This document shows, one piece after another, positions 19,691 through 42,000 of a DNA stretch of 64,000 nt. Numbering within the stretch: position 1 is the first letter of the stretch; each line of letters begins with the position of its first letter. Below the pieces are notes generated by a model. That model was given only the letters and a program-made list of their open reading frames with translations. It did not search any database and was not told the DNA's origin. Source of the DNA: Catenovulum sediminis (GTDB taxonomy: Bacteria > Pseudomonadota > Gammaproteobacteria > Enterobacterales > Alteromonadaceae); assembly GCF_007289895.1 (NCBI RefSeq), contig NZ_CP041661.1, positions 186,001 to 250,000 of the forward strand. Direction: 5' to 3'. The position numbers and the translations under genes are program-made.

Positions 19691-19712
19691 TAATGGTCAT
19701 ATAAACTATATG
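19691..19712. promoter_or_regulatory. Shared regulatory motif, copy A (GH10 operon promoter)
   Basis: TAATGGTCATATAAACTATA at 19691-19710 matches the 20-base consensus TWATnGTYAYAWRAACnATA at every position. A 19-base stretch (19693-19711) recurs in inverse at 19849-19867 on the other side of this divergent promoter region. The two sites face each other about 156 bases apart. Confidence 0.65.
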
Positions 19713-19842
19713 AAATTAATTTGTAAAAATCCAGTCAATTCTCACATCTATTTACAACTTAAAAACAATTAGAACAGATAAAATTCCAATAATTGCCATT
19801 GTTTGGTATCTTTTTTAAATAAAAACTGTTTACATTAACCCA

Positions 19843-19884
19843 CGCTTTATATAGTTTATATGACCATATAAACTATATAAAGCG
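19843..19884. promoter_or_regulatory. 42-bp perfect palindrome upstream of the GPH symporter; shared motif, copy B
   Basis: Two 20-base arms (19843-19862 and 19865-19884, beginning CGCTTTATATAG) are exact inverse copies around a central AC. The palindrome ends 17 bases before the ATG of the symporter gene. A TTTACA at 19829-19834 and a TATAGT at 19850-19855 could be promoter boxes (15-base spacing), in which case a bound protein would cover the -10 box and start site. The arms contain the shared motif on both strands (one mismatch to the consensus). Confidence 0.7.
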
Positions 19885-19901
19885 TAACAAAGGTAATAAA
19901 A

Positions 19902-21239
19902 ATGTCGCAACAACGCCTTTCTATAAAAGAGAAACTGGGCTATGGGTTGGGAGATACGGCGAGTAACATTGTTTTTCAGATACTGGCCAATTTCATGCTG
20001 ATTTTTTACACAGATGTTTTTGGCATTAGTGCTGCCGCTGCCGGAACTTTAATGCTGGTTGTGCGACTATTTGATGGTATAACTGACCCAATTATGGGCG
20101 GCATTGCAGATAGAACGCGTACACGTTTTGGTACTTATCGGCCTTATTTATTAATCATGTGTATTCCGTACGGTATGCTCGCCGTTGTGGCTTTTACCAC
20201 CCCTGATATAGCACAAGATAGCAAGTTGGTATATGCCTATGTATCTTACGCGCTATTAATGACCTGCTATACCGCAATCAATATACCTTATTCAGCACTA
20301 GGCGGCGTTATGACCAGCGATCCTCGCGAACGCGCTTCATTACAATCATTTCGTTTTGCCATGGCAATGAGTGGGGGGGTCATTGTCGTTTGGGCATTAC
20401 CACAATTAGTAGATGCGTTTGCAGAATATGGCCAGCAAACAGGTTATCAGTACGCAATGGCAATTTTAGCATTGTTAGCGGTTGTCTGCTTTTTAACCTG
20501 CTTTTTATTAACTGAAGAGCGAGAACAAGTAAAAGTCAGCAAACAATCAAGTATCATAAAAGATTTCGCTAGCCTATTTAAAAATGACCAATGGGTTTTA
20601 ATGGTCGTCATCACGGTATTTGTTTTAACATTAATTGGTCTGCGTTCCGCCATTGCCCCTCATTATGTTAAATATTATGTAGGTGATGAATCACTTACCA
20701 GTAACTTTTTAACTATGGGTATGATAGCTTCTGTTTTAGGTGCACTGGCCACTCACTTCTTGTCACAGAAGTTTGGAAAAAAACCACTCTTTCAATTTGG
20801 TCTGATCATCGGTGTTATTGCGCATGCCGCTTTGTTTGTGTTGCCAGCATCACAGATTGTATTCATCTTCTTCGTATTTTTTGTTGCTAACTTTGTGCAC
20901 ATGATAGTAACGCCGCTGATGTTCTCAATGATCGCAGATACAGTAGATTATGGACATCTCAAAACCGGTAAAAAAATTATGGCAATGACATTTTCAGGTC
21001 ATTTGCTCGCTATTAAATTAGGTTTTGCCATTGGCGGGGCGACAGCCGGTTGGTTGTTAAGTATTTATAACTATGTACCCAATCAGGCACAAACCAAAGA
21101 AGCGTTAAGTGGAATAATGTTAGGATTTGCGGCCGTCCCTGCAGTGTTACTGGCAGCCGCTTACTTTGTCATGAACAAATACAAATTAACTGAGGGTAAG
21201 CTCTACAAAGTACAGGAAAAACTGAGCATATCTGAATAG
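19902..21239 (+). CDS. GPH-family sugar:cation symporter (MFS superfamily)
   Basis: 445 residues, about 12 hydrophobic spans. The glycoside-pentoside-hexuronide family signature is plain: KLGYGLGDTASNIVFQ at the start, then VRLFDGITDPIMGGIADRT and TRFGTYRPYLL, and DTVDYGHLKTGKK near residue 350. Family members bring xylosides, hexuronides or galactosides across the inner membrane with a proton or sodium ion. It diverges from the xylan operon and shares its regulatory motif, so xylo-oligosaccharides or aldouronic acids are the likely cargo (inference). The ATG is preceded by AAGG. Confidence 0.92.
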   Translation: MSQQRLSIKEKLGYGLGDTASNIVFQILANFMLIFYTDVFGISAAAAGTLMLVVRLFDGITDPIMGGIADRTRTRFGTYRPYLLIMCIPYGMLAVVAFTTPDIAQDSKLVYAYVSYALLMTCYTAINIPYSALGGVMTSDPRERASLQSFRFAMAMSGGVIVVWALPQLVDAFAEYGQQTGYQYAMAILALLAVVCFLTCFLLTEEREQVKVSKQSSIIKDFASLFKNDQWVLMVVITVFVLTLIGLRSAIAPHYVKYYVGDESLTSNFLTMGMIASVLGALATHFLSQKFGKKPLFQFGLIIGVIAHAALFVLPASQIVFIFFVFFVANFVHMIVTPLMFSMIADTVDYGHLKTGKKIMAMTFSGHLLAIKLGFAIGGATAGWLLSIYNYVPNQAQTKEALSGIMLGFAAVPAVLLAAAYFVMNKYKLTEGKLYKVQEKLSISE

Positions 21240-21262
21240 CTGTGATCACCAAGACACATCTT

Positions 21263-21303
21263 GCCCAAAAATAGCGACATTCATCTGTTGTTGTATTTTG
21301 GGC
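21263..21303. terminator. Weak hairpin between convergent genes
   Basis: GCCCAAAA (21263-21270) pairs with TTTTGGGC (21296-21303) across a 25-base loop, followed by TTT. It lies between the symporter stop and the 3' end of the leftward binding-protein gene. Confidence 0.35.
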
Positions 21304-22222: not shown

Positions 22223-22545
22223 TTTTTAACATCCTCATTTGCATCAAAATGATTAATTTGACTAAAACACAAACATAATAGTCACAAAAACCATAATGTT
22301 TCAATATGAAAAACGTGCAAATTCAACACAAACACAAAGATTTAAAAGTTCATAAACAGTGTTAAACAATAAATTACAATTTAAAAACCACAAAAAACCG
22401 AACATTTGTTTAATAAAAAGTAAATAAATATTTATAGCAGAGTTGACCAAATAGTAATAGTCAAATAAACTACCTACAACATAAGATATAACTATTTTTT
22501 TAGTCGGCAACAACACATTCATTACAAATAAACAACAGGTGTAAA
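22223..22545. promoter_or_regulatory. Divergent promoter region with shared regulatory motif, copy C (22274-22298)
   Basis: 323 bases without a gene. TAATAGTCACAAAAACCATA at 22276-22295 matches the shared consensus completely. With flanking bases it has arms CATAATAGT and ACCATAATG. The same 21 bases recur in front of the CBM lipoprotein gene at 41681. Here the site is 52 bases upstream of the leftward binding-protein gene and 248 bases upstream of the rightward TonB receptor, so either could be the target. Confidence 0.6.
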
Positions 22546-25500
22546 ATGGCACATACAATAAAAAATATGAAAAGCTTCAAAAAAAGCTTGATTAGCCTAG
22601 CAGTTTTGGGGTTGTTACAACCGGTTTATGCAGCAGAGGACAGTCAACAAGAAACTGAGACAATCGAAGTAAAGGGCATTCGCGGTAGCGTTATATCCGC
22701 TCAGGCGATAAAGCGCGATGCAGATACTTTCGTTGATTCAATTACGGCAACGGATATTGGCGCCTTGCCAGATTCAAGTGTACTGGAATCTTTAGCACGT
22801 GTGCCGGGTGTATCAATCGACCAGTTTGCTTCACCGAATGATCCTGACCATTTTTCTGCGCAGGGCTCAGGTGCTGTTGTAAGGGGGATGAGCCAAACCC
22901 GCAGTGAATTTAACGGTCGCGATTCGTTTTCTGCAACGTCGGGCCGAGGGTTAAGTTTCTCCGACGTATCTTCAACCATGATGGCCGGTGTGGATGTATA
23001 CAAAAACCAAACAGCCGATATGATTGAAGGTGGTATTGCCGGCACCATCAGTTTACGTACCCGTAAGCCTTTTGACAGTCAAGGACGTAAAGTAGCCCTG
23101 ACTCTAGAAGCCAACTATGGTGACATGGCAAGCGAAGTCACGCCAACAATTGCTGGCTTGTACAGTGACCGATGGGAAACTCAATCTGGTCACTGGGGGA
23201 TTTTAGTGAATGCTTCGCGCTCTGAAATAGCCACTGAATCACATGGTATTCAGTCAAAACGTTTCGAATTTAGACCCTTAGAGCAAATGATTGAAGCTGG
23301 TGCTGTGGCCGAAGATGCACCTTACTATACCTATAATGGCACTTTTGCAAATATTCCAGAGGGCGTTGAAGTAGGCGACCGCGGTATTTTAATGCCGGCG
23401 GGTTCTAATTTAACGATGAAAAACGATACTCACATTCGTTCAGGTTTAGCGGGCGCGCTCCAATGGAAAAGCTTAGATGGCGATATTGAAGCTTCATTGC
23501 AGTTCATGCGTTCAAAATCAGATTCTTCTTGGAAAGAAAATGCGTTAAAAAGTGATGTAGGATATGCGTCACGAACGGATGAACAATTTACTTACCCGGC
23601 GCCAGATGATCAGTGGGATATCACACCAGAAGGCACATTCCAAAGCGGTACGATTTCTGATAGAAGAAGTGGTTGGCGAGGTGATGGCGAGCGCTGGTCA
23701 AATATGAATGAAGTACATAACTTCGGTCTACAAATCGGCGCGGATACCCGATACCATGAAGATATATCTGTCGTCGATGATTTATCATTCAATGTGCGCT
23801 GGATGGCCAATGACAACTGGGAATTAGAAGCTGATATTCAACATATTGAAGCGGCTCGTGATACCTATGATATGCAACTTATTTACGCTGTGCGCGGTGT
23901 TCAAAATTATGATCTGATGGGGGGAGATGACTACCCAACTTTGCATCTTGGTAATCCGTTTGCCCATATGACAAATGAGCAGCTAACCGCACATTATGAA
24001 CAATACGGGGTTGACTACACAGGTGATGACTATTTCACTCAGCCAAGCTCTTATTTGATGCATGCAGGTATGGACCACTTTGGTGATAGTGAAGGCACTT
24101 CTGATGCCATTCGATTGGATGCAAAATATTTCCTTGACGACAATGTATTCTCATCAGTTAAATTTGGTGTGCGCTATCGTAAACGTGATCAAACAATTCG
24201 CTTAACTCAGTATGACTGGGGCAAATTAGCGCCTATGTGGAAAGATCGCGGTTGGTTAGATTCAGAGCTTATGATTGATGCGGGTCTTGCAGACGAATAC
24301 GATGTTATTAACTGGGGTGATTTTTATCGTGGCGATGCGCTCAATATTCTGGGCGGCAATCAAATGTTCCACCCATCTGAAGCATTAGTTAAAGATAGAT
24401 ACAATTTAGGTGACCGACTTGCGCCCTTAGCAGCCGATGACTGTCTAGACTTTGTTATGGCAGATGATAGGGTATCTGAAGATGACTGCTCTGAAATCAA
24501 CTTAAATGGATATTTCAAAGATAACGAAATCAGCCATACATCAGAAGAAAATAAAGCTGTTTATGTCCGTATTGACTATGATACCGATATTGCCGATCAC
24601 CGAGTTTCAGGTAATTTTGGTGTGCGTTTAGTTGAAATTGTCAGTGAAACCGATGGTTTTATGATATTTCCTGAAATGAACACAACCACTCCAGCACCTG
24701 AAGGTTGGGACCCATACAATTATAATATTGAAGCGTATGATTTATTTGCTGAAGAATCTGAATTCTTGGGTGATGCCTACAACTACTTACCACAAGAGAT
24801 AAAAGGGTTTGCCAGCGGTGCTTACACCAAAAACTTTGCGAAAAATAAAACACGCCGAGTACTGCCAAGTTTTAACCTTAAAATTGAACTTACCGATGAC
24901 TTATTGGCACGATTTGCGTTATCAAAAGCCATAGCATTGCCGGATATAGGCGATTTACGCAATTATACCCGATTAGGCCCAATTGCTTACACCACGTCGG
25001 TCAGTTACAAAGACCCTTACTATCACGCTGAAAATCCGCATCCAGATGCACCTGCAGATTCTACAACTGGGATGCCGGTCGATGAATTTGGTGAAGATTT
25101 AGAGCAACAAAGAGTCATTAATCCTGACTCAGTTATATTTGAAGGTTGGAGTGGTAGTGCAGGCAATCCATTCTTAAAACCAATGGAATCAAACCAACTG
25201 GACTTATCACTTGAATGGTATTTTGCAGACGACGGTTCAATTGTCTCTTCTTTCTTCTATAAAGACTTAAGTAACTTCTTTATTAAAGGGGGTTACAATG
25301 TCGATTATACGAATCCAGATACAGGGGTTACTCAAACCGCTATTATTGACGGCCCAACCAATGGCGGCAAAGGCGAAATGAAAGGGGTGGAATTAAGCTA
25401 TAATCAATTCTATCAATTCTTACCTTCTCCTTTTGACGGCTTAGGTTTACAAGCAAACTACTCGTACATTAAAGCTGAAGGGGTCCCTAACTCAAATTTG

Positions 25501-25899
25501 GATAGTTCTGATGTGGCTAACGAAGGTGGGGGTGAAGCACTGGATATATTTAAAGGCCAGTTACCATTGCGTGGTCAGTCTGAGCATACGGCTAATTTAA
25601 TTGGTATGTATGAAAAAGATGGCTGGTCTGCAAGGATAGCCTACAAATGGCGTTCAAAATTCTTGTTAACGTCTAAAGACGTTATTACTGAACTACCTAT
25701 TTTCAATGATGACGAAGGTCAGTTAGATGCTTCATTATTCTATCAATTAACTGACAGTATCAAAGTTGGTGTGCAAGGCGTAAATCTAACAGCGGAACAA
25801 ACGAAAACATTCCAGCAAGTCGACAATAATTTACAACTCGGCCGCTCATGGTTTACCAAAGATCGACGATATCAGTTGATTATTCGCGCAAACTTTTAA
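22546..25899 (+). CDS. TonB-dependent receptor (outer-membrane oligosaccharide importer), 1117 aa
   Basis: The start is an ATG with AGGTG upstream; an internal Met (MKSFKKSLIS) begins a good signal peptide ending in VYA-AED. A TonB-box-like stretch (ETIEVKGIRGS) precedes the plug domain (DSITATDIGALPDSSVLESLARVPGVSID, VVRGMSQTR, GVDVYKNQTADMIEGGIAGTISLRTRKPF). A long 22-strand-type barrel follows, ending in an aromatic terminus (YQLIIRANF). This plan is typical of the large Alteromonadales/Xanthomonadales receptors for plant or algal oligosaccharides. It is followed by a terminator-like hairpin, a MITE and three halogenase-family genes. The substrate is probably a xylan fragment, from context only. 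Confidence 0.9.
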   Translation: MAHTIKNMKSFKKSLISLAVLGLLQPVYAAEDSQQETETIEVKGIRGSVISAQAIKRDADTFVDSITATDIGALPDSSVLESLARVPGVSIDQFASPNDPDHFSAQGSGAVVRGMSQTRSEFNGRDSFSATSGRGLSFSDVSSTMMAGVDVYKNQTADMIEGGIAGTISLRTRKPFDSQGRKVALTLEANYGDMASEVTPTIAGLYSDRWETQSGHWGILVNASRSEIATESHGIQSKRFEFRPLEQMIEAGAVAEDAPYYTYNGTFANIPEGVEVGDRGILMPAGSNLTMKNDTHIRSGLAGALQWKSLDGDIEASLQFMRSKSDSSWKENALKSDVGYASRTDEQFTYPAPDDQWDITPEGTFQSGTISDRRSGWRGDGERWSNMNEVHNFGLQIGADTRYHEDISVVDDLSFNVRWMANDNWELEADIQHIEAARDTYDMQLIYAVRGVQNYDLMGGDDYPTLHLGNPFAHMTNEQLTAHYEQYGVDYTGDDYFTQPSSYLMHAGMDHFGDSEGTSDAIRLDAKYFLDDNVFSSVKFGVRYRKRDQTIRLTQYDWGKLAPMWKDRGWLDSELMIDAGLADEYDVINWGDFYRGDALNILGGNQMFHPSEALVKDRYNLGDRLAPLAADDCLDFVMADDRVSEDDCSEINLNGYFKDNEISHTSEENKAVYVRIDYDTDIADHRVSGNFGVRLVEIVSETDGFMIFPEMNTTTPAPEGWDPYNYNIEAYDLFAEESEFLGDAYNYLPQEIKGFASGAYTKNFAKNKTRRVLPSFNLKIELTDDLLARFALSKAIALPDIGDLRNYTRLGPIAYTTSVSYKDPYYHAENPHPDAPADSTTGMPVDEFGEDLEQQRVINPDSVIFEGWSGSAGNPFLKPMESNQLDLSLEWYFADDGSIVSSFFYKDLSNFFIKGGYNVDYTNPDTGVTQTAIIDGPTNGGKGEMKGVELSYNQFYQFLPSPFDGLGLQANYSYIKAEGVPNSNLDSSDVANEGGGEALDIFKGQLPLRGQSEHTANLIGMYEKDGWSARIAYKWRSKFLLTSKDVITELPIFNDDEGQLDASLFYQLTDSIKVGVQGVNLTAEQTKTFQQVDNNLQLGRSWFTKDRRYQLIIRANF

Positions 25900-25947
25900 T
25901 TAATGCAATATTGTATTAATTGAAGGGTATTTGGATGACATTTTGGG

Positions 25948-25984
25948 GTGTGATGGCGACAATTAGACGCGGTCTAAATCACAC
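25948..25984 (+). terminator. Two-level hairpin after the TonB receptor gene
   Basis: Outer arms GTGTGAT (25948-25954) and ATCACAC (25978-25984) enclose an inner stem TTAGAC-GCG-GTCTAA (25963-25977). TCGTTTTA follows. It lies 49 bases past the receptor stop. A 24-base imperfect palindrome at 25898-25921 overlaps the stop codon itself, and a further small hairpin (TAACCTG/CAGGTTA) lies at 26010-26027. Confidence 0.55.
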
Positions 25985-26047
25985 TCGTTTTATACCATCT
26001 GGGTATCGATAACCTGTATTCAGGTTAAAATCAGCAGGCTAAACTTA

Positions 26048-26311
26048 GGGCGTGTTTATCTTTGTATTATTTTTGAGCAATAGGCTATTTTAATCATTAA
26101 CAAAGCAGAATGAGTGGGGTTTAGTCATTCTAAATAAACGAATTCTAATGCCGTTAAGGGTTAAAATAGCCATTGCCCTTCGGGCTGAGGACAAAATGAT
26201 CTTATGCAGCGTTAGAAATAACTTATTTAGATGACTAAACTTCATTATTTCTGCCTTGCCTAAGACCATTTTTTCTCTCAGCTCAAATTATAAACAAAGA
26301 TAAACACGCCC
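26048..26311. mobile_element. MITE-like element, 264 bp, no coding capacity
   Basis: The 18-base terminal repeat GGGCGTGTTTATCTTTGT (26048-26065) is exactly inverted at 26294-26311. TA flanks both ends (26046-26047 and 26312-26313), as expected for a TA target duplication of the IS630/Tc1 type. The two halves form a long imperfect hairpin with GGCTATTTTAA (26083-26093) opposite TTAAAATAGCC (26161-26171), a shared GTTTAGTCAT block in both arms, and a small GCCC-TTC-GGGC hairpin (26175-26185). No open frame is present. The flanking bases GCAGGCTAAAC (left) and GTTTCGCCTGC (right) are also near-complementary, so the insertion site was itself a hairpin loop. Confidence 0.75.
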
Positions 26312-26351
26312 TAGGTTTCGCCTGCTTTCTCGTAGAGAATATAATTAGGTA

Positions 26352-27878
26352 ATGATGATGCAATCAGTTTCTCGACCTAAGTTAATAAAAAATATTGTTA
26401 TATTAGGCGGAGGAACGGCAGGCTGGATGACAGCCGCAGCCCTTTCCAAAGCACTTAAACCTGACAATATTCAAATAAAACTGGTTGAGTCTGAGCAAAT
26501 TGGTACTGTCGGCGTCGGCGAAGCAACCATCCCCCATATCCGTACTTTTAACAGTTTGTTAGGCATCAGTGAAAGCGAATTTATGCAGGCCACTGAGGCT
26601 ACATTCAAATTAGGTATTCAGTTTAAAGGCTGGGGCAACAAAGATTCTGATTATTTTCATCCATTCTCAGATTTTGGCGAGGCATATCAACAAATTAATT
26701 TCCAAAATTTATACCTTAAAGCCAAGCAAGCCGGATTGAAGCTACCTTTTGACAACTTCTCAACCGCTATTGCAGCTTCACGAGAAAAAAAGTTTTGTTT
26801 TGCGCAAAACCTACCGCCACCACTTTTGAACAATTATTCCTATGCCTATCATTTAAATGCCACTGCTTATGCCCGTTTTTTACGGCAATACAGTGAACAA
26901 AGAGGGGTTAAACGCGTTGAGGGCAAGGTTACAGCGATTAAGACTAAATTACCTGACGGCGATATTTGCTCGCTAACCTTAGACAATGGAAAAACGGTAG
27001 CAGGTGAATTATTTATTGATTGTTCTGGATTTCGAGCACTGCTTATCGGTCAACTTTTAAAATCTGACTATCAAGACTGGTCACACTGGCTCAAATGCGA
27101 CAGTGCCATCGCAATTCAAAGCCCGCTGCATTCCAGCCCGCATCCCTATACTCAAGCAATTGCCCATCAAGCTGGCTGGTATTGGCATATTCCACTGCAA
27201 ACGCGCTGTGGTAACGGCATCGTTTACAGCAGCCAGTACCTATCCGATCAGCAGGCGCTGGTTCAATTGCAAGCAAAAATTGGTTTATCTAAAAACGCGC
27301 GCATAAATGGTCCAATACGCTTTCGACCGGGAGTGCGCCAGCGCGCTTGGGTTAAAAACTGTATTGCAATTGGCCTTTCAAGCGGCTTTTTAGAACCACT
27401 GGAATCTACCAGTATTCACCTGATTCAGGCCAGTATTTTTAAACTCATCGAGCTTATGCCGGCTGATAATCAGTTTGCTCTAGCGCGCGCAGAATATAAC
27501 CGGCTAATCAATTATGAATACAATACCGTTCGCGACTTTATTATTTTGCATTATTACTTAAATCAGCGCAAAGAAGCATTCTGGCAAGATTGTCAAAGTA
27601 TCGATATACCCGACAGTTTAAAGCACAAAATAGAAACTTTTAAACTAACAGGTATTTTAACTGAGAACCAACAAGGTTTATTTTTTAAGCCCAGTTGGCA
27701 ATCCGTATTATTCGGACAAGGTTTAACACCGAAGCAAACCGATCCCAGAGCGGATTTGATGACCAATCAGCAAGCATTAGATTTTGTTTTGCGTTATCTT
27801 GACAAGCAAGATGAGACCGTTCGTCAAATGCCGGGACATGACTGTTGGCTTAATCAAATCGGAGTCATGCGTCAATGA
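26352..27878 (+). CDS. Flavin-dependent tryptophan-halogenase family protein (first of three)
   Basis: 508 residues. Three ATGs follow one another (26352, 26355, 26358) after AGG; the third has the best spacing. The protein keeps the family motifs: FAD-binding GGGTAGWMTA near residue 19, GVGEATIP near 54, the Lys in ATFKLGIQF (about 86, matching the catalytic Lys79 of PrnA/RebH by position), the Trp motif GWYWHIP near 276 (WxWxIP), and FLEPLESTSIHL. This class uses reduced FAD to form hypohalous acid. Relatives near TonB receptors are mostly uncharacterised, and some halogenate free indole in vitro. No NRPS, PKS or flavin reductase lies nearby. The next gene overlaps its stop by 4 bases. Confidence 0.9.
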   Translation: MMMQSVSRPKLIKNIVILGGGTAGWMTAAALSKALKPDNIQIKLVESEQIGTVGVGEATIPHIRTFNSLLGISESEFMQATEATFKLGIQFKGWGNKDSDYFHPFSDFGEAYQQINFQNLYLKAKQAGLKLPFDNFSTAIAASREKKFCFAQNLPPPLLNNYSYAYHLNATAYARFLRQYSEQRGVKRVEGKVTAIKTKLPDGDICSLTLDNGKTVAGELFIDCSGFRALLIGQLLKSDYQDWSHWLKCDSAIAIQSPLHSSPHPYTQAIAHQAGWYWHIPLQTRCGNGIVYSSQYLSDQQALVQLQAKIGLSKNARINGPIRFRPGVRQRAWVKNCIAIGLSSGFLEPLESTSIHLIQASIFKLIELMPADNQFALARAEYNRLINYEYNTVRDFIILHYYLNQRKEAFWQDCQSIDIPDSLKHKIETFKLTGILTENQQGLFFKPSWQSVLFGQGLTPKQTDPRADLMTNQQALDFVLRYLDKQDETVRQMPGHDCWLNQIGVMRQ

Positions 27879-30830: not shown

Positions 30831-32216
<1,386 letters not shown>

Positions 32217-34462: not shown

Positions 34463-34483
34463 AAAAGGCCACAATAAGTGGCC
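34463..34483 (-). terminator. Attenuator-like terminator between receptor and halogenase
   Basis: On the leftward strand GGCCAC-TTATT-GTGGCC (34467-34483) is followed by TTTT. It sits after the TonB receptor stop (34515) and before the halogenase start (34442), so it should end most transcripts after the receptor and let some continue. Confidence 0.65.
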
Positions 34484-34514
34484 CATAAAGAGCCTAATTT
34501 AATTGAGTGCTCAA

Positions 34515-37226
34515 TTAAAAGCTACCTCGAATGCCTACAGAATAGCGAGCACCTACATCAGTTGCCTCAACCAACTGATTTGCATATCGACCGTGTGAAC
34601 GATAAGCTTCATCTGTAATATTAATCCCTTCAAGGAATACAGACAGCTCGTCATTTAAGTCATAACTCACCGTTAAATCTAACTGAGAATAGGCATCGAC
34701 TATGGTTGGTTCTGTCGTTGATAAAGTATTTTGACCAAATCTTTGTAGAAATTCATCACGCCAGTTATACGCTAAACGAGCTTGGAAACCATCTTTCTCA
34801 TAATAACCAACCAAGTTCGCTGAATGACTTAGGCCGGTAACCGCAAAGGTTTGGCCGACGTTTTCGCGGTCAAAATCACTATCGGTAAATACTAAGGTCA
34901 CGTTAGCAACGGTCCCAAAACCCGTATCTCCAAAAGCATACTGGCCTGCGATTTCATAACCATAAACTTGTGCATCTTCACCATTCGCGGGTCGACTTAC
35001 ATTAAATATTGCCACTTTGTCTTGAGCATCCGGCCCAGTTGGATCAGTACCGGTTGACGGGTCGGTTACACCATTAATGTCTTCTTCAAACACTCGAGTC
35101 ACAATAAAGTTACTCACGTTTTTAACAAACGCCCCTACCGAAACATAATCGACATCACTAAAATACCACTCAGCAGACAAATCCAAGTTATCAGATACAA
35201 AAGGGCGTAACCCTGGATTACCGGCCGAAGCATCTAATAATCCAGGACGCGTACCGCGAATAGAGCGTACAGAAGTCATATCATTTAAAGACGGACGAGT
35301 AATCGAGCGAGATGCGGCAAATCGCATTATAAGTTCATCAGTTGCTTCATATTTAACCGACAAACTAGGCAATAAAATATTGTAATCTGATTCATCGGTA
35401 TACTTAATAAAGTCAGATTGAATGCGATTCATATCCTCTTCTGGATCGGTAAACTCCAACTCAAGCAAAGTTTGCTCATTACCGGTTGAAGCAATTTTAG
35501 TGTCTTCATAGCGCGCACCAACTACTATCGTTAACGGCTCACCCGCTAGCTCAGTAAATGAAGTTAATTCAAGATACGCTGACGTTGTTTTCTCGTTAAT
35601 TGTATATGAACTTGTTTGATATTCTGGATAGAAATAATCTAACGGTAGATTATCATCAATATCCTCCAACCAATGATTTCGCACAACAATTGGATCAAAG
35701 TTAAACCAGCCTAAATTGACATCCGCAAATCCGCCAGCCCCTCCAAAAGCATCCATAAAGCCACCAACAGGGTTCCAGTTATAATCTTCATCTCTTACAT
35801 CCTGACTACCATAAACATCCCACGCAAAATCATCCCAAGTTTGGTCGTTTTGCGCGTTGCGAATATCTTTAGTTTGGTCGGTATACATTAAACCGGCTTT
35901 AACCTTGGTATTACCACCATCATCAAAGCTATAATCAAAACGTGTTTGATCAATTTGATCTTCACGATTGTCCTGATACATCTCGTTTACCCAGGTACGT
36001 AACCCTGCGCTGCCATTAGCTGCCATGTCTTGTGTATCAAATGTAAAATATGCCAACTCATCTGACACTTCAAAACCCCACGGCGTATCAAACTGGACAT
36101 CTGATTGATTAATATTAAACTCACCGTCTGGGTTAGACTCTGACTTCGCAGTGCTATATTCAACCTCTATTGTAGACGAGTCTGTTAACTTCCACTCAGC
36201 GCCTAGTGCTGCTGATTTATTGAGTGTACGGGAAACTTCTTTACCTGCAAAAAAGTCAACTGCACTCGAGCCTTGATCGTAAGCGATTGTAGTGCCGTTA
36301 TTATCAAAGGTGATCGACTGTGCTGTATTTTGCGAGAACCAGGTCGCAGCTTCTTGTTTGTACCGATCAACTTCTTCATCTGCATACATTATATCCAGCG
36401 TTGTGCTTAAGTTATCAGATGGCTTATATTGCAAAACTAGGTTACCGTTAATACGGGTACGTTCATCCTGACGTCTGCTATACATAGATTGCTGAGGGAC
36501 AAAATAATTATCACTGGTTAACCCTTGAACGTTTTCAACGCCGCTGATATTCGGGTTTGTATTCCAGCGCGTTACCGCCAGTCTATCTTCTTCTGTTTTG
36601 CGCTGTTGGTAAGCACCCGCAAATAAAATGCCAAAGTTATCCGTTATTTCACGGCTGATTAAACCTGAAATTTGTGGCGTGATTTCCCCAGCTTTAACAT
36701 CAGATGACATTTTAGCACTGGCTGAAATTTTATCTCCTAACGCCAGTGGCCTTGCGGTTGTGATATTAATTAATGCACCTATACCACCAGATTGCATTGC
36801 AGCAGACGAAGTTTTATAAACTTCAACACCGCTCACCATTTCAGAAGCGATATCACTAAAATCAAATGCCCGACCTTCACCACTATTTGGCATTTGACGA
36901 CCGTTTAACGTCACTAAATTAAACGAAGGTCCCATACCACGTACAGTTACCTGCTGCCCTTCACCACTGCTGCGGTCGATCGATACACCGGTAATTCGTT
37001 GTAATGACTCAGCCAAATTTGTATCTGGAAATTTACCTATATCTTCTGCTGATATTGCGTCAACAACGCCGTTGCCATCCTGTTTCACACTCATAGACGA
37101 TATCAGACTTCCTCTGATACCGGACACTTTGATAACCTCAGTTGATGCGCCTTCCTCAGCGGCTAAAACGGGTGTCGCCGCTAACGCAGATAAAATTGAA
37201 ACTGATAGTAATGTTTGTTTAAACAT
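34515..37226 (-). CDS. TonB-dependent receptor, 903 aa (second halogenase cassette)
   Basis: Signal peptide MFKQTLLSVSILSALAATPVLA, a TonB-box-like EVIKVSGIRGS, plug motifs (DAISAEDIGKFPDTNLAESLQRITGVSIDRSSGEG split across residues 55-90, VTVRGMGPSFNLVTLNGRQMP, SGVEVYKTSSAAMQSGGIGALINI) and a barrel ending in ARYSVGIRGSF. This is the common sugar-transporting receptor type of Alteromonadales. The start has a purine-rich AGAGGGG just upstream, and a variant of the shared regulatory motif lies 67 bases further up. It leads an operon with the halogenase and SapC genes. Given its setting between GH11 and GH51 genes, arabinoxylan oligosaccharides are a likely cargo (inference). Confidence 0.92.
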   Translation of the reverse strand: MFKQTLLSVSILSALAATPVLAAEEGASTEVIKVSGIRGSLISSMSVKQDGNGVVDAISAEDIGKFPDTNLAESLQRITGVSIDRSSGEGQQVTVRGMGPSFNLVTLNGRQMPNSGEGRAFDFSDIASEMVSGVEVYKTSSAAMQSGGIGALINITTARPLALGDKISASAKMSSDVKAGEITPQISGLISREITDNFGILFAGAYQQRKTEEDRLAVTRWNTNPNISGVENVQGLTSDNYFVPQQSMYSRRQDERTRINGNLVLQYKPSDNLSTTLDIMYADEEVDRYKQEAATWFSQNTAQSITFDNNGTTIAYDQGSSAVDFFAGKEVSRTLNKSAALGAEWKLTDSSTIEVEYSTAKSESNPDGEFNINQSDVQFDTPWGFEVSDELAYFTFDTQDMAANGSAGLRTWVNEMYQDNREDQIDQTRFDYSFDDGGNTKVKAGLMYTDQTKDIRNAQNDQTWDDFAWDVYGSQDVRDEDYNWNPVGGFMDAFGGAGGFADVNLGWFNFDPIVVRNHWLEDIDDNLPLDYFYPEYQTSSYTINEKTTSAYLELTSFTELAGEPLTIVVGARYEDTKIASTGNEQTLLELEFTDPEEDMNRIQSDFIKYTDESDYNILLPSLSVKYEATDELIMRFAASRSITRPSLNDMTSVRSIRGTRPGLLDASAGNPGLRPFVSDNLDLSAEWYFSDVDYVSVGAFVKNVSNFIVTRVFEEDINGVTDPSTGTDPTGPDAQDKVAIFNVSRPANGEDAQVYGYEIAGQYAFGDTGFGTVANVTLVFTDSDFDRENVGQTFAVTGLSHSANLVGYYEKDGFQARLAYNWRDEFLQRFGQNTLSTTEPTIVDAYSQLDLTVSYDLNDELSVFLEGINITDEAYRSHGRYANQLVEATDVGARYSVGIRGSF

Positions 37227-37292: not shown

Positions 37293-37312
37293 TAGTTGTC
37301 ATTTAGACCATA
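37293..37312. promoter_or_regulatory. Shared regulatory motif, copy F (variant), before TonB receptor 34515-37226
   Basis: TAGTTGTCATTTAGACCATA agrees with the consensus TWATnGTYAYAWRAACnATA at 17 of 20 positions and keeps both GT and AC cores. It is 67 bases upstream of the receptor start. This is the weakest of the six copies. Confidence 0.45.
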
Positions 37313-37674: not shown

Positions 37675-39246
37675 CTAACGAAGCTTAACCACAAGCACTG
37701 AATGCTGAGGCAAGGCCACAGATAACCTACCTCGCTTGATTGCATACCCTACTTTTTCTGGTTTAACGCGCTCAGGTTGAGAAAAAGAATTGAAACTATT
37801 CATTTTTTCGGAGGTCAGTAACTCTCCCTCTGCTCGTGTAAAAACCTTGTTTGTAAGTTTTAATTTTACATCAGCCAGATTTTTTGAAGATAAATTAACA
37901 AGCGATAAATAAATATAACCATCTTTAGCTTTAGCTGCTGACACACTTACGGCTGGGTAACTATCATCCCCGGAGCTTTCGTAGTCCATCGTGTCTATCT
38001 CGAGCGGAATAAATTGCGCATCCTGAAACGGCGCATACATCTTAAACGTATGATAGGTCGGCGTCAGTATCATTTTTTCTTTGTCCGTCAGTATCATCGC
38101 CTGTAATACATTGACCATTTGAGCAATATTTGTCATCTGTACGCGCTCAGCATATTGATGGAATATATTTAGATTTGCAGCGGCTACCACAGCGTCACGG
38201 ATAGTATTTTGCTGATACAAAAACCCAGGGTTGTGCTCGGGTTCAACATCGTACCAAGTTCCCCATTCGTCGACATAAAAACCGATATTCCCTTCAGGAT
38301 CATGAGTATCCAATACTTTTAAATTATCCCGAATAAACTTTTCAATCTTGAGTGTATTCACCATAGTTGAGTCCCACTCAGATTGCGGAAAATAGATGGC
38401 CTTACCCTTTTTATTCCAGTCGTTGGTCGGTAGCGTATAATAGTGAAAAGAAATCGCATCCATTTTAGCGCGTTTATTTTGACTTAAAACTTCAGTCCAC
38501 TTGGTATCGTCTCCGGTACCGCCACTTGCAACAAACACCGGTGGCTTACCACTATATGTTTTGGCGAAAGTTGCATATTGATTATATAAATCGGCGTAAT
38601 ATTCAGGCGTCATGTTACCACCACAACCCCAAGCCTCGTTACCAATCGTCAAATAATCAATTTTAAACGGTTTATGTCGGCCATTCGCACGTCGCTCTTG
38701 AGCTAGGCTTGAATTATTCGTCGCTGTCATATATTCGAGCCACTGTGCCATCTCCTTTGCGGTACCTGTACCTAGATTAACATTCAAGTAAGTCTCTGCG
38801 CCGATCATTTCGGCAAACTCAAAAAATTCATGTGTGCCAAACTGGTTACTTTCTTCAACCCCACCCCAGTTTGAATTAACCCGGGTTGGACGTGACGCTC
38901 GATTACCAATGCCGTCTCGCCAGTGATATTCATCGGCAAAACAGCCTCCAGGCCACCTGACGACAGGCACTGGTAAATTTTTCAATGCGTTAATCACATC
39001 ATTGCGATAACCTCGGGTATTGGGAATATCTGAATCTTCCCCTACCCATATTCCTTCATATATACCTCTGCCTAAATGCTCAGTAAATTGGCCATAAATA
39101 TTTTTGTTGATCGTAAAAGTTGTATTATCCGTGTCCACTGAAATCACAGCCTGATTTTCAGCTAGAACAGAAAACGCACTTAATGTACACGTAAGCAAGA
39201 CACTGGACAGTAATTTATTTGGCAATTGAAAAGCGAATTGAATCAT
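37675..39246 (-). CDS. GH51 alpha-L-arabinofuranosidase, exported
   Basis: 523 residues with a signal peptide ending in SVLA. GH51 motifs: IYGQFTEHLGRGIYEGIW, VVRWPGGCFADEYHWRDGIG, DYLTIGNEAWGCGGNM with the acid/base Glu near 204, FHYYTLP, and FYVDEWGTWYD with the nucleophile Glu near 326. A C-terminal beta domain follows. It removes arabinose from arabinoxylan or arabinan; the signal peptide is notable because many GH51 enzymes are cytoplasmic. The start has AAAGG 7 bases upstream. It follows the GH10 gene by 69 bases with a terminator between, so its expression may be lower or partly independent. Confidence 0.93.
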   Translation of the reverse strand: MIQFAFQLPNKLLSSVLLTCTLSAFSVLAENQAVISVDTDNTTFTINKNIYGQFTEHLGRGIYEGIWVGEDSDIPNTRGYRNDVINALKNLPVPVVRWPGGCFADEYHWRDGIGNRASRPTRVNSNWGGVEESNQFGTHEFFEFAEMIGAETYLNVNLGTGTAKEMAQWLEYMTATNNSSLAQERRANGRHKPFKIDYLTIGNEAWGCGGNMTPEYYADLYNQYATFAKTYSGKPPVFVASGGTGDDTKWTEVLSQNKRAKMDAISFHYYTLPTNDWNKKGKAIYFPQSEWDSTMVNTLKIEKFIRDNLKVLDTHDPEGNIGFYVDEWGTWYDVEPEHNPGFLYQQNTIRDAVVAAANLNIFHQYAERVQMTNIAQMVNVLQAMILTDKEKMILTPTYHTFKMYAPFQDAQFIPLEIDTMDYESSGDDSYPAVSVSAAKAKDGYIYLSLVNLSSKNLADVKLKLTNKVFTRAEGELLTSEKMNSFNSFSQPERVKPEKVGYAIKRGRLSVALPQHSVLVVKLR

Positions 39247-39276
39247 TTAATACCTTTAGCGTGTAAGTTATAAAAG

Positions 39277-39305
39277 AGAAAAAGCCGGTGAAAACGAAAA
39301 CCGGC
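39277..39305 (-). terminator. Rho-independent terminator between GH10 and GH51
   Basis: On the leftward strand GCCGGT (39300-39305) pairs with ACCGGC (39284-39289) over a 10-base loop and is followed by a T-rich run (39277-39283). It lies 11 bases after the GH10 stop. Confidence 0.75.
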
Positions 39306-39315
39306 ATTTTACTAA

Positions 39316-40458
39316 CTATTGATTATCAGCAATTGCATCTGCCACACCTTGTAATGCGGGCTTAGCTTCTAATTCGCTGTTAAACAGTAATGGCCAGTCG
39401 GGCTGGTCGTATAAATTAATAATCCAGCTATCCGCATCCGTTATACCCCAAATAGTAATCCCGCCTCTTTGCGCTGCTGGTACGGTTTCAAGGTAAGCAG
39501 AAACAACTTCGTAGTAACGTTCTTTTTGACGTTCCGCGATATCCGGTGTTAACGCGTCGTCATTGTTTGCTGCATTCATACGAATGTCTAATTCGGTAAT
39601 TTTAACTTTAATACCTAAATCAACGACCTTTTGAAAATGTGCTTTTATGGTATCAGCGCTGGGTGAATCTGCTCCAATATGCATTTGAAAACCGACCCCA
39701 TCAATTGGAATATTACGCGCCTGAAAATCTTTTACCATTGCCACTACAGCGTCAATTTTAGGCTCACTGCTTGAAAGGTTATAATCATTGTAATATAGCT
39801 CGGCATTGGCATCTGCGGATCGGGCTGTGGTAAATGCACGTTCGATAAACTCTGCACCAATATTCTGATACCAAATTGAGCCATCATCCCGATATTCTCC
39901 ATTTTCTAAAAAGGCTTCGTTTACGACATCCCAACTTTGCAAACGCCCTGAAAAATGTGTCGCTATCTGTGTTACATGATTTTCCATCATGTCGATCCAC
40001 TCAACTTTACTGCCACTGAATGATTCCATCCAACCAGCAGTTTGACTATGCCACACTAAAACATGACCGTGCACACTCAAACCATTGTTCGCCGCAAAAT
40101 TAACCAGCTCATCCGCAGCATCAAAATTAAAGTTGCCTTGTGACGGGTGCAATGCATCCATCTTCATTATATTTTCAGCCGAAACCTGGCTAAAATGCTG
40201 AAGTACAATATTTTTTCTTTCTTCACTGACAAAAATACTGTTTGAGGCACCGCCCGCTGGAACCGCGACGCCAATCGGTAAATCAGCCCCTTCTTTTAGA
40301 CTAGTCACAGTTACCTGTGAATATTCAGTCAAAGGTTCATCAAGTTGAAGTCCGTCGTTAGAATAATGCGCTTCAGGAATGTTGGTATTGCCTGAGCCAC
40401 ATGCGACCAAACCAATCAAAGTGCAACTCGTAACAAGTGCTTTTAATATCTTATTCAT
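39316..40458 (-). CDS. GH10 endo-1,4-beta-xylanase, lipoprotein (second copy)
   Basis: 380 residues, lipoprotein signal (LIGLVAC). GH10 barrel motifs: ENIMKMDALHPSQG, GHVLVWHSQTAGWM, SWDVVNEAFLENG with acid/base Glu near 181, YYNDYNLS, GVGFQMHIG, KITELDIRM with nucleophile Glu near 288, and ITIWGITDADSWI. It differs well beyond a recent duplicate from the GH10 at 18482. It lies 63 bases after the CBM lipoprotein gene, which may tether it or present substrate to it at the cell surface. Confidence 0.95.
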   Translation of the reverse strand: MNKILKALVTSCTLIGLVACGSGNTNIPEAHYSNDGLQLDEPLTEYSQVTVTSLKEGADLPIGVAVPAGGASNSIFVSEERKNIVLQHFSQVSAENIMKMDALHPSQGNFNFDAADELVNFAANNGLSVHGHVLVWHSQTAGWMESFSGSKVEWIDMMENHVTQIATHFSGRLQSWDVVNEAFLENGEYRDDGSIWYQNIGAEFIERAFTTARSADANAELYYNDYNLSSSEPKIDAVVAMVKDFQARNIPIDGVGFQMHIGADSPSADTIKAHFQKVVDLGIKVKITELDIRMNAANNDDALTPDIAERQKERYYEVVSAYLETVPAAQRGGITIWGITDADSWIINLYDQPDWPLLFNSELEAKPALQGVADAIADNQ

Positions 40459-40521
40459 AAATTAACCGTGTCGTTTATATTGTTTTTTTAAATGAGGGAT
40501 AGATAAAGTGTTAGCTTCCAG

Positions 40522-41664
40522 CTAATCCGTTTCCGGTGAAGCTGGATTAATTGTAAAGTTATCAATTAAGTAGCTAGCCTCAGCATCACTGCTTTCGATA
40601 TAAACAAAAATGCCCGTTGGAGCCTCAGATTCCCCCATAGCATCTACCGTATATTGACCGGTTAATTGTACCCAGTCTGCATTGCTAGCATCGGTTAAAG
40701 GCAAAACTTCACCGTATTGGTCGTTTGCAGTACCGAAACTATATTTTATCGAAGCTTTAACCTGAGCGGCTTCCTTATCTAATAATTTCAGCCAAAAACT
40801 GAACTCATATGTGTTACCAACCACTAAGGTTTCAACCAATTCAACACCTGGCGCATTCCAGCCAGCGGTTCTTCCTGTCGCACTTAATGCATGTGATCCT
40901 ACTTTTGCATTTTCAACCGCTTCAATGGTGATCCCACCTTGTTGCGACCAATCACCCACTGTACCGTCGTCAAAATTAGCAGAATACAAATCACTCTGAG
41001 TTTCTTCTTCCGATGCAGCCTGCACTTGTTCAACCACAAAATTATCAATCAAATAATCCACGCCAGCTTCTGGACCTTCAACATACAAAAAAGCTTCCGT
41101 GACTGTCCCTTCCGCTGTAAATGTATAAGTTCCTTTAACTTCCACCCAATCAGAGTCGCTCGCTGCAACGGCTTCAGTCACACCGTTATATGTTGTTTCT
41201 TGTCCTTCTACACTGGTTTTTAACGTCATTTTAATGTTTGCAGCGTCGCTGCCTGACAGTTTAACCCAAGCTGAAAACTGATATGTTTTACCCACCTCTA
41301 ATTGTTCAGTCAGGACAACCCCTGGTGCATTCCAGTTCTCGGCACGGCCACTTGCTTCAAGCGCATAGACACCATCTTGCGCATCCTGCACCGTTGCCAT
41401 CCCAACCGAGCCTTGTGCAATCCAGTCTCCGACTGTGCCATCTTCAAAACTGGTTTGATAAACAATAGCAGCATTTTGATCACTACCTTCACCGCTATCG
41501 TCATTCGTGTCGCTATCGTCATTAGTGTCGCCACCTTCATCCTCAGAATTTTGGGGTTGCTCAACTTCAACTGTCCAAGCGCTTTCTTCATCGGTTTCCC
41601 AGCTACAAGCTGTAATGCTACCTGTTGCAAGTATTAATACTAATATATGGTTCAACTTAAACAT
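40522..41664 (-). CDS. Lipoprotein with two carbohydrate-binding (CBM4/9/22-like) modules, no catalytic domain
   Basis: 380 residues from ATG 41664, chosen because AAAGG lies upstream and a lipoprotein signal follows (ATGSITAC); the frame runs back to 41733 through the regulatory motif and that part is not coding. An acidic Asp/Asn/Ser linker (DTNDDSDTNDDSGEG) leads to two repeats of about 150 residues. Each begins with a YxxxFEDGTVGDW or ANFDDGTVGDW motif, has GRAENWNAPGV or GRTAGWNAPGV, and ends in YLIDNFVVE or YLIDNFTIN. This is the jelly-roll pattern of CBM4/9/16/22. It probably binds xylan at the surface. It is first in an operon with GH10 and GH51. Confidence 0.85.
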   Translation of the reverse strand: MFKLNHILVLILATGSITACSWETDEESAWTVEVEQPQNSEDEGGDTNDDSDTNDDSGEGSDQNAAIVYQTSFEDGTVGDWIAQGSVGMATVQDAQDGVYALEASGRAENWNAPGVVLTEQLEVGKTYQFSAWVKLSGSDAANIKMTLKTSVEGQETTYNGVTEAVAASDSDWVEVKGTYTFTAEGTVTEAFLYVEGPEAGVDYLIDNFVVEQVQAASEEETQSDLYSANFDDGTVGDWSQQGGITIEAVENAKVGSHALSATGRTAGWNAPGVELVETLVVGNTYEFSFWLKLLDKEAAQVKASIKYSFGTANDQYGEVLPLTDASNADWVQLTGQYTVDAMGESEAPTGIFVYIESSDAEASYLIDNFTINPASPETD

Positions 41665-41680
41665 GATGGTACCTTTACCG

Positions 41681-41701
41681 TAATAGTCACAAAAACCATA
41701 A
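41681..41701. promoter_or_regulatory. Shared regulatory motif, copy D (CBM/GH10/GH51 operon)
   Basis: TAATAGTCACAAAAACCATA matches the consensus fully. The whole 21-base stretch is identical to copy C at 22276-22296. It ends 17 bases upstream of the lipoprotein start codon, a position suited to repression. Confidence 0.65.
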
Positions 41702-41979
41702 AGAGTATACAAATGAGTTATCAAATTTGTCAATGCATTGTTATATTTATTTTAACTATATTGAGCTAACTCTTAAAGTTAGCCATCAATAACCAAAATA
41801 TTTAATAACAAACATATACTTAAAATCATCCAACCAGAACTCAAACACTGACTAAACCGCACACATTAAGCCAGTTAACACCTATAAAAACGGGTTTATT
41901 TCCCTATTCTCAGCAAAACACACGCTAGTCGAGTTAAAAATTGATATTGAAATGTTATATATTTTTAGTTAGATTAACC

Positions 41980-42000
41980 TTATTGTTATATGAACAATAA
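41980..42000. promoter_or_regulatory. Shared regulatory motif, copy E (acetylesterase/GH115 operon)
   Basis: TTATTGTTATATGAACAATA (41980-41999) matches the consensus fully and carries the exact arms TTATTGTT and AACAATAA around ATATG. It ends 9 bases before the ATG at 42010, overlapping the expected ribosome-binding region. The rest of the 345-base gap (41665-42009) contains the divergent promoters and no gene. Confidence 0.6.

Follow-up and report, generated by a model that had tools for sequence, protein, structure and literature searches.

An NrtR-family regulator and its candidate near-palindromic operators across a xylan locus with halogenase cassettes in Catenovulum sediminis

About eight copies of a near-palindrome are spread across the xylan genes of a 64,000-nucleotide stretch of Catenovulum sediminis DNA (hereafter, the window), and these copies are very probably the operators of an NrtR-family regulator encoded at 47478 in the same stretch, which is predicted to repress the locus until a pentose arrives. 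Specifically, the xylan genes, the xyloside symporter, both TonB-receptor/halogenase cassettes and the regulator's own gene would each have a dimer of the 47478 protein bound at the promoter or a short distance downstream of it, and would be repressed while it is bound. Xylan breakdown would then bring a pentose, most likely D-xylose, into a degenerate Nudix pocket, upon which the two winged helices would move, the protein would leave the DNA, and the locus would be switched on.

The pattern TWATnGTYAYAWRAACnATA, whose near-palindromic 19-bp core is WATNGTYANNNTRACNATW, matches the window 14 times with up to three mismatches, compared with 2.94 matches expected, and 14 was reached in 0 of 100 shuffles. 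The candidate operators and the genes beneath them are collected in Table 1. An earlier sequence-only reading had listed six of these sites, and all six hold, but the list was incomplete: 47112-47131, 41741-41760 and, outside the window, C2:298797-298815 are added here. Its four exact matches and its three mismatches at 37293-37312 were recovered by the pattern search, and the claimed identity of two distant sites over 21 bases is correct (22276-22296 and 41681-41701). For the site before the GPH symporter the single mismatch stands, but the span given as 19843-19884 does not; the site occupies 19850-19869, on the minus strand, inside a larger inverted repeat. Likewise, three sites had been said to end within 20 bases of a start codon, but we count two, the second depending on the use of the ATG at 41664. 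The degenerate site at 37294 has a matrix score of 15.7, and the next lower score in the window is 10.6. The left half of the 41981 site is kept in Catenovulum 2E275, and the 47113 site lies in a block conserved in four Catenovulum-type sequences; with this site 346 bp before it, the regulator gene is predicted to be autoregulated.

Table 1. Candidate operators and associated genes, in window positions
Feature	Position	Strand	Remarks
Candidate operator	19691-19710 (core 19692..19710)		Exact match; found by model R1; 54 bp upstream of GH10 gene
Candidate operator	19850-19869 (core 19850..19868)	- (match)	1 mismatch; R1; 32 bp upstream of GPH symporter
Candidate operator	22276-22295 (core 22277..22295)		Exact match; R1
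Degenerate candidate operator	37293-37312 (core 37294..37312)		3 mismatches; 66 bp upstream of TBDR2-halogenase-SapC cassette
Candidate operator	41681-41700 (core 41682..41700)		Exact match; R1; 16 bp upstream of CBM lipoprotein ATG (41664)
Second, weaker candidate operator, CBM-GH10b-GH51 promoter	41741-41760 (core 41742..41760)		3 mismatches; matrix score 15.8
Candidate operator	41980-41999 (core 41981..41999)		Exact match; R1; 10 bp upstream of SASA esterase/GH115 genes
Candidate operator	47112-47131 (core 47113..47131)		1 mismatch; R1; 346 bp upstream of regulator gene
GH115-GH43-GH67-GH2-GH10 (GH10a) genes	8625..19636	-	GH10 below NCBIfam cut-off
GPH symporter	19902..21239	+	TIGR00792 above cut-off
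TBDR1 and three halogenase-family genes (26352, 27875, 29207)	22546..30706	+	Co-transcription predicted
TBDR2, halogenase-family gene, SapC	32217..37226	-	
CBM4/9 lipoprotein, GH10b, GH51	37675..41664	-	GH51 similarity below cut-off; GH10b from tblastn targets common to GH10a
SASA esterase and GH115	42010..46865	+	
NrtR-family regulator, Nudix effector domain and winged helix	47478..48209	+	Pfam profiles, PDB similarity

At three targets the positions of the sites suit repression. The operators before the SASA and CBM genes end 10 and 16 bp from the starts; the 41682 site is immediately downstream of TTGACA-18-TATACT (the CBM promoter; 11/12 match) and the 19850 site overlaps a possible -10 element of the GPH gene (TTTACA-15-TATAGT, with a non-optimal spacer), although promoter-like matches in these regions show no clear excess over chance. 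Furthermore, the characterised Bacteroides regulator BtAraR loses affinity for DNA upon sugar binding, as stated in the excerpted text of PMC4666351. An activator or a dual regulator would fit the variation in site-to-start distance, from 10 to 346 bp, but we consider this improbable beside simple repression. The GH115-GH43-GH67-GH2-GH10 genes would form one regulated operon.

Across the whole genome there are 19 matches with up to two mismatches: all four exact and both one-mismatch matches lie inside the window, and the other 13, all with two mismatches, lie elsewhere. The total for the reversed-pattern control is also 19 (10+9 in each case), so that with two mismatches allowed the consensus does not exceed the control and only the class with zero or one mismatch is informative. 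In this class the good matches are not scattered but gathered at this locus, as the sequence-only reading would have it. Model R1, trained on sites from other genomes, gives six distinct sites in the 4.87-Mb genome, all of them in the window. This output comprises 11 matches under an E-value limit of 10, which allows up to 10 chance matches, and the individual E-values are weak (0.37 to 8). Scoring covered 150 of 4269 first-look candidates, and because a matrix derived from the window served to find R1's training sites in the first place, the scan is not fully independent. The 37294 and 41742 sites are absent from the R1 output, as is the distal site C2:298797-298815 (matrix score 18.0), which precedes GH43 genes adjoining a GPH-type transporter. 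Little was gained genome-wide from a looser, symmetric pattern, WATNGTYANNNWRACNATW: allowing one mismatch it has 71+68 matches vs 90+98 for its reversed control, and some exact match occurs in 99 of 118 family genomes. Its exact matches in the own genome (4+4 vs 1+1 for the reversed control) comprise four window sites, C2:298797, C1:550348, C1:511635 and C1:1604950; no clear promoter context was found on reading the surroundings of C1:550348, and the last two have matrix scores of 10.3 and 9.0.

The 47478 product matches the Pfam profiles NrtR_WHD (7.9e-28), AraR_C (1.7e-14) and NUDIX (2.6e-6), all above cut-off (accessions PF00293, PF21906 and PF19368), which gives an N-terminal Nudix-like domain and a C-terminal NrtR winged helix. 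Residues 60-83, GHWVKLDEDLETAAYRVVTQSTGV, do not fit the Nudix box GX5EX7REUXEEXGU when compared by eye, and the protein is best described, from its sequence, as an NrtR-family member that appears to be without a hydrolase-type Nudix box. Among solved proteins it matches BtAraR (BT0354) at 5.9e-45, and structures for that regulator and its operator are given in the part of PMC4666351 consulted (PDB 5BS6, 5DDG and 5DEQ). Both proteins combine a Nudix domain with a winged helix, and both regulons bring together polysaccharide and monosaccharide genes. Most of the DNA-contact residues of BtAraR are kept in the clade of the window regulator: positions 178, 179, 181, 183, 184, 204 and 205 are D, K, N, R, R, H and R in 23/23 clade rows. 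Aligned by its centre, the operator of the BtAraR crystal, AAGTGTTAC-T-TTTACACCC, agrees with WATNGTYAN-N-NTRACNATW at the GTYA core. In contrast, the half-site is WATNGTYA here and AAGTGTTA in BtAraR, the operator core is GTYA and not the AraR-type GTGT, the intercalating Arg180 is replaced by Pro or Ser in the clade (Pro194 in the 47478 product), and the host is a gammaproteobacterium.

The protein also differs from the NrtR regulators of NAD metabolism, with which it shares the fold. Asn43, Lys76 and Arg98 of SoNrtR, which belong to the ADP-ribose site, are His49, Ser80 and Leu102 in the 47478 product; its neighbours are xylan genes and not NAD genes, and with 136.7 of 400 bits it stays below the cut-off of the NCBIfam NtrR equivalog. 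The streptococcal NrtR box, ATA-N-TTTA-N3-TAAAA-N2-ATA in the excerpt of PMC6800001, resembles the window motif in its left half and central spacing (ATA-N-TTTA-N3-TAAA), but its right flank, as printed, is two bases longer.

The sites recur with the regulator in two phyla, before homologous genes in related genomes. With a matrix built from four window sites, the regulator's own site being left out, 16 of 25 clade loci reach a score of at least 15.5 in the 450 bp before the regulator gene, compared with 0/7 for distant homologues (L055, L056, L058, L066, L072, L136, L137). The nine clade loci below this score are G113-C3, where a site lies about 520 bp from the regulator, G085, G060, L127, the own C1 paralog, L042, L043, L044 and L048. 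All six Bacteroidota loci (L049-L054, Cytophagales-type) reach at least 17.9, and shuffles of these loci average 0 to 0.03 matches of at least 15.5 per locus. Further upstream regions taken from these loci made a misleading control, because many of them are regulon candidates, and were replaced by shuffles and regulator-free genomes.

Model R2, trained on window sites only and scoring 150 first-look candidates per genome, finds 46 sites in nine regulator-bearing genomes, 24 of them within 50 kb of the regulator. The gene next to 19 of the 46 is a homologue of a gene of this locus (in three cases only the regulator itself), although weak homology (23-33% identity) underlies several of these labels, whereas in seven genomes without a regulator ortholog 0/14 sites precede such homologues (Fisher p 0.002). 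The other 27 are not directly before a recognised homologue, and six of the 46 lie inside ORFs; 10 of the 14 control sites are also outside ORFs, and in G054 neither of two sites is near its regulator. Some of the 46 mark LysR/dehydrogenase promoters (L198, L203) and are probably look-alikes, set aside as an explanation and kept within the 46. G001 (one R2 site) and G025 (seven), which have only 31-32% regulator homologues, were left out of the 14, and a GH43 gene near G085:C1:660330 was not counted as a target since the site is at its downstream end. Run on the same 18 genomes, again with 150 first-look candidates scored in each, R1 gave at least 4 to 29 matches per genome where the regulator is present (nine genomes) and 0 to 10 where an ortholog is lacking (seven), with 6 in G001 and 9 in G025 among the matches listed; this run is not a held-out test, and just two G113 sites are taken from it. 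R1 was trained without L129:14851 (score 16.1) because the target of that site is not clear; training also excluded L131:4651, L129:6828, L128:17271, the site of G113-C3, and those of L040-L042, L046, L050, L052-L054, L134 and L135.

It is worth considering whether another regulator owns the sites, with the NrtR-like gene a bystander. The genome encodes an AraC-type XylR beside the C1 paralog, an unseen LacI or GntR protein might act, and other xylan loci are placed under LacI, two-component or AraC-type XylR proteins in PMC12125979. We regard this as very unlikely. The 20-kb stretch around the AraC-type XylR has no site. In L049-L054 (at least five of these loci, all searched at 1e-15) the regulator is the only one of the 29 window proteins with a match, and still the palindrome is in its promoter. 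The layout of the site fits the AraR operator, and genomes without a regulator ortholog lack target-linked sites. The 47478 protein remains the predicted owner; counting against it, the C1 paralog has the same DNA-contact residues but no operator within 20 kb (best score 7.8).

In L049-L054 the genes for xylulokinase and xylose isomerase (xylB-xylA) are transcribed divergently from the regulator, with the palindrome in between in 6/6, an arrangement of xylA/xylB link and shared promoter operator that marks an NrtR-type XylR and that is not found in the 64-kb window, which has no xylA or xylB match. In genus g5, too, the regulator is near xylA/xylB in each of the three genomes that carry it; elsewhere in the clade xylA and xylB were not seen within the stretches examined. 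A regulator beside these genes in six relatives points to D-xylose as inducer, and the 47478 product is predicted to be a xylose-responsive repressor. L-Arabinose and D-xylose are C4 epimers. The pocket keeps two of three Bacteroides AraR ligand residues, Arg86 and His131, while Arg34 is Tyr or His in the clade (Tyr47 in the 47478 product); this arginine holds O4 of arabinose according to the BtAraR passages of PMC4666351. It is possible, though on the unlikely side, that the protein senses L-arabinose, a xylo-oligosaccharide or ADP-ribose instead: the Arg86/His131 pair is kept, the GH51- and GH43-type genes of the window suggest arabinoxylan, and oligomer-sensing regulators are frequent according to PMC12125979. 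The lost Arg34, the xylA/xylB association in 9/9 of loci L049-L054 and L133-L135, and the loss of the SoNrtR residues favour D-xylose.

The sequence-only reading proposed that the xylan regulon also covers the halogenases, and the recurrence of sites before homologous genes supports this. Receptor-promoter sites occur at cassettes in four other genomes (G085, G084, G046 and G113), and it is on this basis that co-regulation of the halogenases appears well supported for the TBDR1 cassette and moderately for that of TBDR2. In G085 the regulator lies collinear with the receptor and the halogenase-family genes, and a site stands about 90 bp upstream of the receptor; G113 has two weaker R1 sites at its cassette. 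Sites accompany TBDR1-homologous cassettes in L128 and L222, and those of the TBDR2-homologous cassettes in L129 and L131 are stronger than that in the window, which taken by itself is weak. These patterns argue against the view, which we find unlikely, that the cassettes are outside the regulon and the nearby sites serve neighbouring genes. Such a view could appeal to the three mismatches of the TBDR2 site, to the 452 bp between TBDR1 and the first halogenase gene, and to the 22276 site, which had been assigned to a TonB receptor or binding protein and which lies between the 21560-22222 gene and TBDR1, closer to the former (53 bp) than to the latter (250 bp). Against it also, R1 gave no site outside this locus despite some dozen further halogenase-family genes in the genome. 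Under the favoured reading, that the cassettes belong to the regulon, the halogenase-family genes would be co-transcribed with their receptors. Ranked by similarity to the products of 26352 and 29207, the top three solved proteins include the flavin-dependent halogenases BrvH and Xcc4156; unlike these, the halogenases of the window would stand under a xylan regulator.

The regulatory logic is already known from Bacteroides AraR and XylR, while a gammaproteobacterial xylan regulon with halogenases looks new. BtXylR (BT0791) is an NrtR-type regulator predicted for a xylose operon in Bacteroidetes in the excerpts of PMC3878776 and PMC4666351; it is similar by description, in family, in its xylose genes and in that Bacteroidota relatives of the window regulator adjoin xylBA, but the regulon proposed here would take in an entire xylan locus, receptors and halogenases included. 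The xylan systems in the consulted part of PMC12125979 (LacI-type, hybrid two-component and AraC-type XylRA) also control xylan genes by xylose or xylan products, with a different regulator family and operator. Among the literature matches listed there is no gammaproteobacterial NrtR-type xylan regulon and no halogenase in a xylan regulon; a word search found no 'halogenase' in PMC1790865, PMC12125979 or PMC10766802, and neither 'TonB' nor 'xylan' in PMC8269204.

These observations assign an unnamed motif to a named regulator by tests able to fail, and widen the range of sugar-sensing NrtR proteins beyond Bacteroidota, into a polysaccharide locus of a gammaproteobacterium. We hesitate to go much further, and offer only tentatively the idea that in marine Alteromonadaceae a Nudix-fold D-xylose sensor, shared with Bacteroidota through horizontal transfer, runs the entire xylan locus including flavin-dependent halogenases, which would then act on something encountered during xylan uptake and not in secondary-metabolite synthesis. 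If so, the halogenase substrates might be, for example, aromatic xylan decorations or indolic compounds at the cell surface. Growth on xylose or xylan is the condition in which the receptor-linked flavin-dependent halogenases should be made, and given that the native substrates of BrvH and the Xanthomonas halogenases are stated to be unknown in the portion of PMC7336383 consulted, this predicted growth condition would open the halogenase question to experiment.

The 20-base near-palindrome that the sequence-only reading had proposed as an operator is enriched in the window, with 14 matches (both strands, up to three mismatches) against 2.94 expected and none of 100 shuffles reaching that count. 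With at most two mismatches allowed, the whole 4.87-Mb genome holds 19 matches. Six of them, four exact and two with a single mismatch, all lie inside the window, and the remaining 13 carry two mismatches each. The reversed pattern, used as a control, likewise gave 19 matches, and therefore the informative class is restricted to matches with zero or one mismatch. By that measure the good matches are not scattered over the genome. The coordinates originally assigned to the sites are correct overall, the exception being the symporter site, first placed at 19843-19884; two sites, at distances of 10 and 16 bp, end no more than 20 bases from a start codon, where three had been named, and two further sites were absent from the original list. 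No variation is seen in either site alignment at eight of 19 motif columns (A2, T3, G5, T6 and their partners).

Features associated with the predicted operators, in the window unless a contig or locus is named
Feature	Position	Remarks
Operator facing the symporter operator	19692	Centre lies 158 bp, or about 15 helical turns, from that of the operator at 19850; would allow DNA looping
Perfect inverted repeat	19842-19885	21-bp arms, 2-bp spacer; upstream of the GPH gene; encloses the symporter operator
Symporter operator	19850-19869	
220-aa protein	21560-22222	Signal-like start; 53 bp from an operator; Pfam scan, no family; homologue in G085 adjoins GPH (L128:1010)
Degenerate halogenase-like protein	27875-29188	58 bits (Pfam); between two full-length ones
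CBM gene start, most likely	ATG 41664	Preceded by GGTAAAGG; mechanical call was TTG 41733
Further operator	41741-41760	CBM promoter
Further operator	47112-47131	346 bp upstream of the regulator
Conserved block AACATAGTCA	~47422-47450	Shared by four Catenovulum-type sequences, just 5′ of the regulator gene; suggested half-site or promoter element
NrtR-family regulator	47478-48209 (+)	
Regulator paralog, main contig	L120 9904-10635; G000:C1:850916	77% identical
Distal operator	C2:298797	Matrix score 18.0; 26 bp upstream of a pair of GH43 genes that lie behind a GPH-type transporter

The second contig (759 kb) of a Catenovulum-like member of the Alteromonadaceae contains the window, and the nearest named regulator records are from an uncultured Alteromonadaceae (95% identity) and Catenovulum sp. 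2E275 (88%). Pfam and NCBIfam identify GH115, GH43, GH67, GH2, GH11, CBM4/9 and SASA genes, a GPH symporter, two TonB receptors, SapC, and three full-length and one degenerate halogenase-family proteins; the GH10a and GH51 assignments are similarities below cut-off. Aligned with its counterpart in Catenovulum 2E275, the CBM-SASA intergenic region of the window shows drift; the longer identical runs lie at or beside the operators, and the right halves of two of these operators differ. Four regulator promoters retain an ATAGT...AACAATAA block.

Two motif models were applied genome-wide. The first, R1, was trained on 18 sites from other genomes, taken in both orientations; its scan of the whole own genome at E ≤10 gave 11 matches, which represent six different sites, every one inside the window (E 0.37 to 8; 150 of 4269 first-look candidates scored); C2:298797 was not returned among the candidates scored. 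The R1 training sites had themselves been located with a window-derived matrix. The second model, R2, was trained on six sites of the window and run on 18 other genomes, and is free of this circularity. Nine genomes with a close regulator ortholog yielded 46 distinct sites, 40 of them outside ORFs and 24 within 50 kb of a regulator (G113 3/6, G085 3/6, G038 2/5, G046 5/11, G084 6/10, G060 2/2, G054 0/2, G089 1/1, G117 2/3), and seven ortholog-free genomes yielded 14, ten outside ORFs (G050 2, G094 3, G112 2, G078 5, G109 2; none in G004 and G011). The expectation that sites recur before homologous genes is borne out: 19 of the 46 lie directly upstream of a homologue of this locus's genes (in three, the regulator itself only), as against 0 of 14 in ortholog-free genomes (p 0.002). 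Targets beyond the 19 include a GH98-type gene in G113 and, in G046 and G084, a ThuA/oxidoreductase-sugar transporter promoter, behind which lies a GH43 gene. A similar palindrome in LysR/zinc-dehydrogenase divergent promoters of two genera (L198, L203) is probably a LysR site.

Receptor/halogenase cassettes carry such sites in related genomes. G085 has, in series on one strand, a receptor, three halogenase-family genes (of which one matches weakly) and the regulator; a site there is centred 96 bp upstream of the receptor. G084 and G046 each have a site centred 41–50 bp upstream of a TBDR2-type receptor, with halogenase and SapC homologues following the receptor; a further G046 site separates a receptor from a halogenase gene. 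In G113, two weak R1 sites (E 2.6, 7.7) are flanked by a receptor-halogenase pair on one side and a GH10 gene on the other. The own genome encodes 16 matches to the 32913 halogenase-family protein, three in this cluster and one of those outside a gene in two pieces; R1 sites (150/4269 candidates scored) occur in this cluster only. The closest solved relatives of 26352 and 29207 are 9luq, Xcc4156 (6y1w) and BrvH (6frl), and that of 32913 is 2pyx. The 27875 product, a weak partial relative, is possibly a non-catalytic partner.

The 47478 product contains NrtR_WHD, AraR_C and NUDIX domains, all above the Pfam cut-off, and its best solved relative is BtAraR (E 5.9e-45), followed by SoNrtR (2.9e-19). 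Matches at 1e-20 occur in 18 of 118 family genomes, ten (own included) at ≥59% identity and eight at 30–33%. The main-contig paralog, surrounded by genes for a sugar transporter, AraC-type XylR, GH3, ThuA and an FGGY kinase, has the same DNA-contact residues; a matrix scan of 20 kb there found no operator, and both copies may share one operator set. When centre-aligned with the motif, the BtAraR operator of 5DDG, as given in a base table (PMC4666351), has the GTYA core and spacing in common with it, and the streptococcal NrtR box, in the form quoted in PMC6800001, agrees in its left half and centre, although the printed box extends two bases further on the right flank. At BtAraR positions 178, 179, 181, 183, 184, 204 and 205, 23 clade proteins have Asp, Lys, Asn, Arg, Arg, His and Arg, whereas 184 and 204 are both Lys in BtAraR; its intercalating Arg180 is replaced by Pro or Ser, and the base step that Arg180 enters corresponds to the free N4 of the motif. 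L-arabinose and D-xylose differ at C4; because of this, and because the O4-contacting Arg34 is replaced (by Tyr or His, with Phe49 becoming Trp and Arg86 and His131 retained), the pocket agrees with, and does not prove, D-xylose sensing. The contact between Arg34 and O4 of L-arabinose is that described for BtAraR (PMC4666351).

At the CBM gene the best promoter-like match, TTGACA-18-TATACT (11/12), is immediately followed by the operator, and at the GPH gene the operator covers part of a possible -10 whose spacer is short; promoter-like matches elsewhere in these regions are near chance level. Such placement is as a repressor's would be. Given this placement, and given that BtAraR loses DNA affinity upon sugar binding (PMC4666351), we favour a scheme in which the regulator would repress the locus and D-xylose would relieve repression. 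The inverted repeat at the GPH gene folds as RNA at -23.9 kcal/mol (z -8.0) and may be an added leader hairpin or a double operator.

Sugar-sensing NrtR proteins are already described for Bacteroidota (PMC4666351, PMC3878776). A literature search to which subscription papers contributed little showed, among the records listed, no NrtR-type xylan-locus regulator reported in Gammaproteobacteria and no halogenases among the targets of such a regulator, and the words NrtR, Nudix and halogenase are absent from the main text of a 2024 review of hemicellulase regulation (PMC10766802). The 450 bp upstream of each of 32 related regulators were scored with a matrix made from four window sites, the regulator's own omitted. 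Of 25 clade loci (≥50% identity), 16 scored at least 15.5; none of the seven distant loci did. All six Bacteroidota clade loci (L049-L054; record titles Cyclobacteriaceae ×3, Flammeovirgaceae, Cytophagales and Bacteroidetes ×1 each) carry a palindrome such as TATAGTCAAAATGACCATA, scoring 17.9–20.8, about 55 bp upstream of the aligned regulator start, and 40 shuffles of each averaged 0 to 0.03 matches at 15.5. All six regulators adjoin opposite-strand xylulokinase and xylose isomerase genes; three genus g5 loci also have xylA and xylB close by, and within the stretches examined the pair was not found near other clade regulators. Since these Bacteroidota regulators are 50–55% identical to the gammaproteobacterial one and have the same predicted operator, horizontal transfer of the regulator between phyla is likely.
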